Source: Dehalococcoidia bacterium
GTDB taxonomy: Bacteria; Chloroflexota; Dehalococcoidia; Lucifugimonadales; Australimonadaceae
Reading direction: 5' to 3'
Length of the DNA stretch: 64,000 bases
NCBI GenBank assembly: GCA_022820645.1
Contig: JAJEFD010000013.1
Span: 383,308-447,307, forward strand
How positions within the stretch are numbered: the first letter of the stretch is position 1; the number at the start of each line of letters is the position of its first letter. The translations under genes were made by a program, and so were the position numbers. The notes beneath the pieces were generated by a model that did not search any database, was not told where the DNA came from, and saw only the letters and a program-made list of their open reading frames with translations. Of this stretch, positions 6,030-8,583 are shown piece after piece.

Positions 6030-7199
6030 CTATTGCGCGAGCCCACTGTCCCTGCCGAAGTCGAGGAACGAGTGATATTCGACCGGGTCGTGATGTTCAG
6101 TAGGCGTCTTCGTCTCCTCTACGCGGCGCAGACTAAGCCCGAGCCGATGACGTTCCGGATCGAGGCTTACTATCTGGAGCGTCATTGTATCACCGATATT
6201 AACGACTTCACGCGGATGACGGATGTGTGCTTCGGTCAGTTCCGAGATATGTATAAGCCCTTCGATCCCGTCCTCTACGCGCGCGAATGCGCCGAAATCG
6301 GCGAAATTCGTAATCGTTCCGGTCACCAGTTGCCCCACGTGCATGCGTTCCATGGCCGCTTGCCAGGGGGTGGGGGTGAGGCGGCGGAGACTGAGTGCGA
6401 TGCGGCGGTTATCGCGGTCGATACGCAGCACCTGCACATCGACTTCCTGCCCTACCTCCAGTACGTCCGCAACGTTGCTCACCGGAGACCACGATATCTC
6501 AGAGATGTGAACGAGTCCGTCGGCGCCGCCGATATCCACGAACGCACCGAAATTGGAGATGCCGGATACGCGCCCGTGGCGAACATCGCCTTCCTGCAAT
6601 GTGCTCAGCAGCTGGTCTTTCAGCCCTTCCCTCTGCTCGCGAAGCGCTCCGCGCTCCGTGAGGACCACGCGGTTGCGCTTCCGGTTCACCTCGACGATCT
6701 TGAGCGATACCTCTTCTCCCACACGCGCCGCAAGAGCGGCTTCCGGATCGGCGCCTGCCGCGATCGCGACCTGCGAGAGGGGGATGAAGCCTTGCAGGCC
6801 GTTCAGGTCTACGACCATCCCCCCGCGGTTGTGGCCGGTGACTTTCCCGGTTACGAAAGTGTCGTTGCGTTCCGCCTCTTCGAGCGTCAGCCACGCGCTG
6901 AGAGCGCGCACGCGGTCGATCGACAGTTGCGCCTGCCCCTCAGGGCCGGTGACGTCCATGACGTAGACATTGATGGTGTCGCCGATGCTGTAGTGGGCGG
7001 CCGGGTGCGGCGTCAGGGTCCGCATCTCACGGGCAGGAACCATGCCTTCCGATTTGTAGCCGATGGAGACGAGGATCCCGTCCTGGTCTATCTCCATGAT
7101 CTGTCCGGGTACGATGTCTCCCCGGCGCAACTCCTGCGGCAGAGCCTCCTCCTGAAGGAGCTCCGCCATCGTTGGTTCGCCGGGGTCACCCGTGCTCAT
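6030..7199 (-). CDS. rpsA: Four-repeat S1 RNA-binding protein (ribosomal protein S1-like)
   Basis: Single-stranded RNA-binding protein of 389 residues with four S1 (OB-fold) repeats, starting about residues 24, 107, 200 and 285. Repeats 3 and 4 carry the typical NFGAFVDIGG..GLVHISE and DFGAFARVEDG..GLIHISE cores. E. coli S1 has six repeats; four is usual in Gram-positive-type lineages. The frame is open upstream, but MSTGDPGEP at 7199 is chosen because the preceding 60 codons read as non-protein sequence. The ribosome site is weak. A role in translation initiation is inferred from the family. Confidence 0.85.
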   Translation of the reverse strand: MSTGDPGEPTMAELLQEEALPQELRRGDIVPGQIMEIDQDGILVSIGYKSEGMVPAREMRTLTPHPAAHYSIGDTINVYVMDVTGPEGQAQLSIDRVRALSAWLTLEEAERNDTFVTGKVTGHNRGGMVVDLNGLQGFIPLSQVAIAAGADPEAALAARVGEEVSLKIVEVNRKRNRVVLTERGALREQREGLKDQLLSTLQEGDVRHGRVSGISNFGAFVDIGGADGLVHISEISWSPVSNVADVLEVGQEVDVQVLRIDRDNRRIALSLRRLTPTPWQAAMERMHVGQLVTGTITNFADFGAFARVEDGIEGLIHISELTEAHIRHPREVVNIGDTMTLQIVSLDPERHRLGLSLRRVEETKTPTEHHDPVEYHSFLDFGRDSGLAQ

Positions 7200-7369
7200 C
7201 TGCTCAGACACGGCCACTCCGAATCGGCATTTCGCCAGAGGTGCGATTCTACGGCCTGACGTCCAGGTTGCATACCCTAGAAGGCGGTGCATTAGACGCT
7301 CAGCGCGAAGCGACTGCCACATGGCGCCCAGCAGCGCGCCCGGGAGTCGTTGGGAAGGGGGACAAGCAA

Positions 7370-7389
7370 GCCCGGGCAACTGCCCGGGC
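7370..7389 (-). terminator. Terminator hairpin of the 5S rRNA unit
   Basis: GCCCGGGC, a 4-nt loop, then GCCCGGGC, 16 bp past the mature 5S 3' end. On the minus strand it is followed by TTGCTTGTC. An all-GC 8-bp stem of this kind is a plausible intrinsic terminator despite the interrupted T run. Confidence 0.7.
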
Positions 7390-7405
7390 GCTCATCTGTC
7401 TCATA

Positions 7406-7523
7406 GCCTGGCGGTGACCTATTTTCCCAGCAAGTTGCCCTGCCAGTATCGTCGGCGCTGGAGCGTTTCACTTCCGTGTTCGGGATGGGTACGGGTGGGT
7501 CCGCCCCGCTCAAACCACCAAGC
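7406..7523 (-). rRNA. rrf: 5S ribosomal RNA (solitary)
   Basis: 118-nt 5S rRNA recognised from the conserved loop A/B core (ACCCATCCCGAACACGG and AAGTGAAACG on minus) and the 3' stem. The ends pair as helix I: GCTTGGTGGT with ACCGCCAGGC, with only G-U exceptions. No 16S or 23S is adjacent. Divergent pfkA begins 94 bp upstream and a protein gene follows downstream. The gene has its own -35/-10 with initiation at the mature 5' end and its own terminator, so it is an independent transcription unit. Confidence 0.95.
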
Positions 7524-7529
7524 CTCCTG

Positions 7530-7559
7530 AGTATAAGGGCGCTCCTGTACAGGAGTCAA
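7530..7559 (-). promoter_or_regulatory. Sigma-70-type promoter of the 5S rRNA gene, with palindrome in spacer
   Basis: On minus, TTGACT (7554-7559), 18-bp spacer, TATACT (7530-7535), then 6 nt to the 5S 5' end. The spacer contains the perfect palindrome CTCCTGTACAGGAG (7542-7555), which also touches the -35 and could be an operator. Confidence 0.8.
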
Positions 7560-7602
7560 ACGGGTCTAACGCTCTCGGAACCATTCACGAACAGGGCGGT
7601 GC

Positions 7603-7608
7603 TACAAT
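7603..7608 (+). promoter_or_regulatory. -10 box of pfkA, leaderless type
   Basis: TACAAT ends 9 nt before the pfkA ATG. A start site about 7 nt downstream would leave a leader of only about 3 nt. No Shine-Dalgarno is present. I see no clear -35. Confidence 0.6.
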
Positions 7609-7617
7609 CGCTGCACT

Positions 7618-8583
7618 ATGAAGAAGATCGGCGTGCTGGCCAGCGGCGGAGACGCTCCGGGCATGAACGCGGCAATCCGCGCTGTCACGCGCACCGCCTT
7701 GTTCCGCTCCACTGAAGTCTGGGGTTTCTGGGACGGATTCAACGGCCTCCTCGACCATCGGGTAGAAGAGCTTACTACCCGGCATGTCGCCGGGTCCCTG
7801 CGGCACGGCGGCAGCATCATAGGAGCAGGCCGCTGCGAGCCTTTCCTGGACCCGAACGTTCGCAGCAAGGCCGTGGAAGACCTGCGCGCGGGAGGTTTCG
7901 AAGGGCTAGTCGTCATCGGCGGCGAAGGCTCCATGCAGGGTGCATGGGAGTTACACAAGCTCGGCATGCCCGTCGTCTGCATCCCCGCGACCATAGACAA
8001 TGACATGCCCGGCACGGAGATCACCATCGGAGCGGACACGGCGATCAACACGGCGATGGAGGCCATCGACCGGATCCAGGACACCGCCGCCGCGCACCGG
8101 CGGGCCATGATCGTCGAGGTGATGGGCAGGCACTGCGGATACATCGCCGTCATGGCCGGCCTCGCCACGGGCGCGGAGATGGTGCTCACCCCTGAACGCC
8201 CGATGGAGCTGGAAGAGGTCTTCGAGGAGATGCGGCAGGTCTGGCTGCGGGGGAAGCGCCACTTCATCATCGTTCTGGCGGAAGGGGCACGCTGGGGAGC
8301 GGCAGAGCTCGCGCAACTCATCAACGAATCGGACAAGCCTTACGACGCCCGCTACACGGTGCTCGGCTACATACAGCGAGGAGGCGTGCCGTCCCGGTTC
8401 GACCGCATCCTCGGAACGCGCATGGGCGTCAAAGCAGCCGACGCTCTCCTCGACGGCGTATCCGGAGGCCTCGTCTGCTGGCGGAACAACCGCAGCGAAG
8501 TGTTGCCGATAGACGAGTTGCCGCCGCGCGGCGATCCCTGGGACGAGATGTTGAGCAGGGTGCAGGCCATCTCCGCCACCTGA
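7618..8583 (+). CDS. pfkA: 6-phosphofructokinase
   Basis: Phosphorylates fructose 6-phosphate in glycolysis. It has 321 residues, and the numbering runs parallel to E. coli PfkA. The nucleotide loop is ASGGDAPGMNAAI (residues 8-20), the catalytic PATIDND segment keeps D127 and D129, and MGRHCGYIA (sugar binding) is near 170. Gly104 is present, as in ATP-dependent enzymes; PPi enzymes have Asp. Residue 103, the usual Mg-binding Asp of GGDG, is Glu (GGEGS), and residue 124 is Ala, neither the ATP-type Gly nor the PPi-type Lys. ATP dependence is therefore likely but not certain. It is transcribed divergently from the 5S gene. Confidence 0.94.
   Translation: MKKIGVLASGGDAPGMNAAIRAVTRTALFRSTEVWGFWDGFNGLLDHRVEELTTRHVAGSLRHGGSIIGAGRCEPFLDPNVRSKAVEDLRAGGFEGLVVIGGEGSMQGAWELHKLGMPVVCIPATIDNDMPGTEITIGADTAINTAMEAIDRIQDTAAAHRRAMIVEVMGRHCGYIAVMAGLATGAEMVLTPERPMELEEVFEEMRQVWLRGKRHFIIVLAEGARWGAAELAQLINESDKPYDARYTVLGYIQRGGVPSRFDRILGTRMGVKAADALLDGVSGGLVCWRNNRSEVLPIDELPPRGDPWDEMLSRVQAISAT

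Follow-up and report, generated by a model that had tools for sequence, protein, structure and literature searches.

A sole, unlinked 5S rRNA gene with its own conserved promoter in a Dehalococcoidia bacterium

The 5S locus and its surroundings

The window considered here, i.e. the whole 64-kb stretch of DNA that was analysed, holds a 5S rRNA gene that matches the Rfam 5S_rRNA model (RF00001) over its full length (model positions 1–120, E 6.5e-18, 89.6 bits against a gathering score of 38). The Rfam scan of the window gave no other RNA match and a tRNA search of the window found none, in keeping with an earlier, sequence-only reading of this DNA, which had described a complete 5S gene with no 16S or 23S beside it; these two genes lie far off on the same contig. 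The same reading placed protein-coding genes on both sides, which proved correct (Table 1); farther out, a gene for L19 follows the phosphofructokinase-like gene and a ClpC-like gene lies past the S1-domain gene. On the plus strand, at 7603–7618, a TACAAT is found about 10 bases ahead of the pfkA ATG, and the pfkA mRNA may be leaderless.

Upstream of the 5S gene, a TTGACT-N18-TATACT promoter spans 7559–7530, as had been proposed with no strand given; all the elements of the unit are on the minus strand. No other promoter-like site lies in 7200–7720, where 0.1 would be expected, and the string TTGAC-N19-TATACT, with one mismatch permitted, occurs a single time in the window, at the 5S gene, against 0.10 expected from shuffles. 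A palindrome in the promoter spacer, CTCCTGTACAGGAG, was considered as an operator-like element and rejected, as it is not kept in congeners. The hairpin terminator of the earlier reading was also recovered, at 7389–7370, in the form GCCCGGGC-AGTT-GCCCGGGC with a GC stem, although it is better termed terminator-like, its T tail (TTGCTTG) being imperfect and weak. No second hairpin of this kind lies in 7200–7720, but with 0.4 expected, its presence alone is not significant.

Table 1. Features of the 5S unit and its neighbours, in window positions.
Feature	Position	Strand	Basis or remark
S1-domain (ribosomal protein S1-like) gene, downstream neighbour outside the 5S unit	6030..7199	-	ORF; beside 5S in 14/15 family genomes
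Intrinsic-terminator-like hairpin and T tail	7360..7389	-	Stem-loop at 7389-7370; equivalent in all 15 family loci
3' trailer, mature 3' end to terminator, needs trimming	7390..7405	-	Sequence
5S rRNA gene, complete, sole copy found in genome	7406..7522	-	Rfam RF00001, 89.6 bits
Predicted transcription start, G at 7523 or C at 7522	7522..7523	-	Inferred from -10 spacing
-10 hexamer TATACT	7530..7535	-	7 nt separate its end from mature 5S position 1; invariant in 5 congeners
-35 hexamer TTGACT	7554..7559	-	Sequence; exact TTGAC in 15/15 family genomes having 5S
6-phosphofructokinase-like gene (pfkA), divergent neighbour	7618..8583	+	ORF; beside 5S in most family genomes

Conservation in the family and the 5' end of 5S

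A 5S gene is present in 15 of the 16 genomes of the family, as a single copy in each. All 15 loci carry an exact TTGAC at -35 to -42 (about 0–0.026 expected per locus), which is followed at 17–18 bp by a -10 hexamer, and a GC hairpin occurs shortly after the 5S gene in every case. In a gap-free alignment of five congeners the TTGAC and TATACT columns are 100% invariant, compared with 28% of the spacer and 4% farther upstream. That 5S forms an independent transcription unit, as the sequence-only reading had suggested, is well supported by this conservation, together with the single copy in the genome and the lack of a 23S-linked one.

The position of this promoter also bears on how the 5' end arises. 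The -10 ends 6–9 nt ahead of mature 5S position 1 in 13 of the 15 family genomes; in the window, the predicted start at 7523 or 7522 compares with mature position 1 at 7522, a geometry which fits a 5' end set by initiation, and helix I comes out blunt and 10 bp long when a transcript beginning at 7523 is folded. At the level of sequence it is well supported that the promoter start would define the mature 5' end, as is the sharing of this promoter type with 23S, described below. Since the promoter would set the start almost exactly at the mature end, the 5' cut that usually releases 5S from a longer precursor may not be needed, and a lack of 5' processing in this unit is plausible, while at the 3' end the trailer and hairpin would still need trimming.

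An alternative, which we hold to be unlikely, grants 5S its own unit but has the transcript begin farther upstream, or lets an enzyme such as RNase J or RNase III still process the 5' end, such that the promoter would not define the mature end. The exact start nucleotide indeed lies beyond what a promoter match can fix, 7523 or 7522 being a prediction, and the -10 is set 13–22 nt upstream in two genomes of the family and in several solitary 5S genes of other families (f3, f34 and f4), some of them with complementary flanks. In the two family members (L005 and L017) the distance is 13 nt and the complementary flank 5 bp, and some 5' trimming of their 5S is likely; complementary flanks that would extend helix I, considered as a possible mark of processed 5S, have a mixed occurrence among linked and solitary 5S genes. 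Against this alternative are the 6–9 nt spacing of the other 13 family genomes, the lack of a second promoter-like site around the gene and the results for the processing enzymes. Neither RNase M5 (TIGR00334) nor RNase E/G (TIGR00757) gave a match over cut-off in any of 147 class genomes, whereas control genomes did exceed both cut-offs; weaker matches fell far below, were confined to small parts of much larger ORFs and were interpreted as cross-hits to TOPRIM or S1 domains. The textbook 5S-maturing endonucleases are thus not evident in the class. This does not explain the detachment of 5S, because genomes with linked and with solitary 5S genes alike lack matches over the cut-off.

In 14 of the 15 family genomes 5S is followed on its own strand by the S1 gene, an arrangement that would also be expected if 5S were made mainly as the leader of the S1-like gene and then processed out. 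The conserved hairpin between the two argues against this, as does the remaining genome (L008; G005:C1:1527728-1527844), where the 5S unit has a location other than the S1/pfkA site of its 14 relatives and retains a promoter, TTGACG-N17-TATGAT, in a place without S1; we therefore regard a leader origin as very improbable.

Copy number and linkage of the rRNA genes

The genome to which the window belongs (G000; 2.75 Mb, 94.9% complete, 19 contigs) has Chloroflexota, SAR202 and Dehalococcoidia MAGs as its closest named records. Each rRNA gives one match in it, viz. one 5S (C13:390713-390829), one 23S (C13:142268-145260) and one 16S (C13:336151-337651), all on the 505-kb contig C13, with 5S about 245 kb from 23S and about 53 kb from 16S. 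If unlinked means a separation of over about 2 kb with genes in between, too great for a common transcript, then all three genes are unlinked. A complete relative of the same genus (G005), with a single-contig chromosome of 2.51 Mb, agrees, having one 5S at 1.528 Mb, one 23S at 1.622 Mb and one 16S at 2.363 Mb, again unlinked. Locating 16S and 23S and counting 5S copies was the check proposed with the sequence-only reading, and it returned no second 5S linked to 23S in the window's genome.

Given the single unlinked copies in both genomes, a 23S-linked 5S is excluded as far as such assembly permits. That the locus is a stray or non-functional copy, the functional 5S being linked to 23S in an unassembled part of this incomplete genome, is very improbable; this account is already contradicted by the single-copy results, by the sole 23S, assembled with both flanks and followed by tRNA-Met rather than 5S, by the one 5S of the complete congener and by the 98–100% identity of 5S among four congeners whose flanks have diverged. 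Elsewhere in the class, one genome (G134; C9 and C14) has two full-length 16S genes, yet one 5S and one 23S.

Solitary and linked 5S genes across the class

The linkage of 5S and 23S was compared in 35 chosen genomes of the class. Detached 5S genes are found in the window's family (f1) and in f3, f4, f6, f20, f26, f28, f34 and f42, and 23S-5S linkage in f2, f15, f16, f29, f30, f44, f46 and f54; detachment recurs across the class, and a 23S tree built from 30 genomes requires five changes between the linked and the solitary state, irrespective of direction, with at least two of them forced by well-supported branches. In f28 only 5S has departed and 16S and 23S are still together. Outside the window's family, 10 of 13 detached 5S genes have a significant promoter no more than 55 bp upstream, compared with one of 11 linked genes; those of f28 combine a TTGC-type -35 with a CATAAT or GATACT -10, the latter ending 6–8 nt before 5S. 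A reversed order was seen at one locus (L109; G039:C2:103581-110429), where 16S lies about 2 kb beyond 23S-5S, in the same orientation.

A trace of the earlier arrangement may persist beside 23S. In 24 of 30 class genomes a tRNA-Met(CAT) gene lies within about 400 bp after 23S, whether or not 5S is linked, and family f2, which belongs to the same order as the window's family, has 23S-tRNA-Met-5S where the latter has 23S-tRNA-Met without 5S. The simplest reading would be that 5S moved out of an old operon and tRNA-Met stayed. The tRNA-Met(CAT) after 23S at L002 has the GGG/CCC anticodon stem typical of initiators.

Stoichiometry and the promoters of 23S and 16S

The classical bacterial route to equal amounts of the three rRNAs is to process them out of a single transcript, and it had been argued from the sequence that dosage must here be balanced in another way. 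This holds insofar as the output of three promoters has to be matched, which is the dosage question that remains, but it was overstated, as one copy of each gene gives 1:1:1 and 5S and 23S have the same type of promoter; the puzzle is smaller than had been supposed. TTGAC-N19-TATACT occurs upstream of 23S in each of the seven family genomes whose 23S is full-length, in the form TTGACA-N18-TATACT and with a start 179 to 298 bp upstream of the gene, and also ahead of 5S in five congeners; over the 174 loci compared it is almost confined to these two sets of promoters. The common string suggests shared control of 5S and 23S. Sharing does not clearly extend to 16S, whose promoter has a TTGACA/G -35 and a -10 unlike that of 5S and 23S.

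The leaders of 16S (L003, L059 and L060) and 23S (L002 and L041-L043) contain a nearly invariant TTAACAAG-GAATA stretch about 60–110 bp upstream of the genes, which may be called boxA-like by resemblance only. The 5S unit is without it, and at 117 nt may have no need of antitermination.

Proposed explanation

Considering the locus as a whole, we think it likely that 7406–7522 is the functional and sole 5S gene of a Dehalococcoidia/SAR202-related member of the Chloroflexota with three fully unlinked rRNA genes, in which a housekeeping-sigma promoter of the type used by the 23S unit would start a short transcript within one or two nt of the mature 5' end. Transcription would stop at the GC hairpin, 3' trimming would be the sole processing, and 5S and 23S output would be matched by one gene copy each and near-identical core promoters (TTGACW-N18-TATACTC). 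Within this explanation, it is the start site, the absence of 5' processing and the co-regulation of 5S and 23S that we infer. There is perhaps an even chance that the scheme holds lineage-wide, viz. that 5S is a primary transcript whose 5' end is set by the promoter and not by an RNase, in a class where neither RNase E/G nor M5 is evident, and that it is balanced with 23S through the shared core promoter type.

The production of rRNA from a single transcript has been wholly taken apart in this lineage; the class repeats the change and offers linked relatives for comparison. The system opens three questions to testing: how rRNA amounts stay matched in the absence of an operon, whether the 5' end of 5S has to be processed at all, and how 5S matures without evident RNase E/G or M5.

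Comparison with known systems

Solitary 5S genes occur in Leptospira and some Mycoplasma, and the stand-alone 5S genes of archaea have their own promoter and a short transcript. The archaeal genes resemble the present unit in both of these respects, while here the promoter is of the bacterial sigma type and is paired with an intrinsic-terminator-like hairpin. Separate 5S genes are known in bacteria but are described as very unusual; PMC8172020 reports the separation of archaeal 5S genes, and also single-copy solitary 5S genes far from 23S in some CPR bacteria. Like those of Leptospira and Mycoplasma, these share with the present case a single-copy 5S far from 23S, but the sources compared describe no conserved promoter at the mature 5' end, and the genome studied here, at 2.75 Mb, is not strongly reduced. 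A search of open-licence papers found no account in which a conserved promoter determines where mature 5S begins, nor of one shared with 23S.

Unlinked 16S and 23S genes are widely reported in bacteria (PMC8172020, citing Brewer et al. 2020 ISME J; PMC7761764), and broken rRNA operons have been tied to symbionts, in which RNases E and G tend to decrease (PMC7761764). Common to these and to the present genome are the lack of a single operon and a small copy number; in the known pattern it is mostly 16S that stands apart from 23S-5S, whereas here 5S stands apart too. The Dehalococcoides-type arrangement, with 16S apart and 23S-5S together, which is seen in f15, comes from the same class and likewise has single-copy split rRNA genes, but there 5S still comes after 23S, unlike in the window's family.
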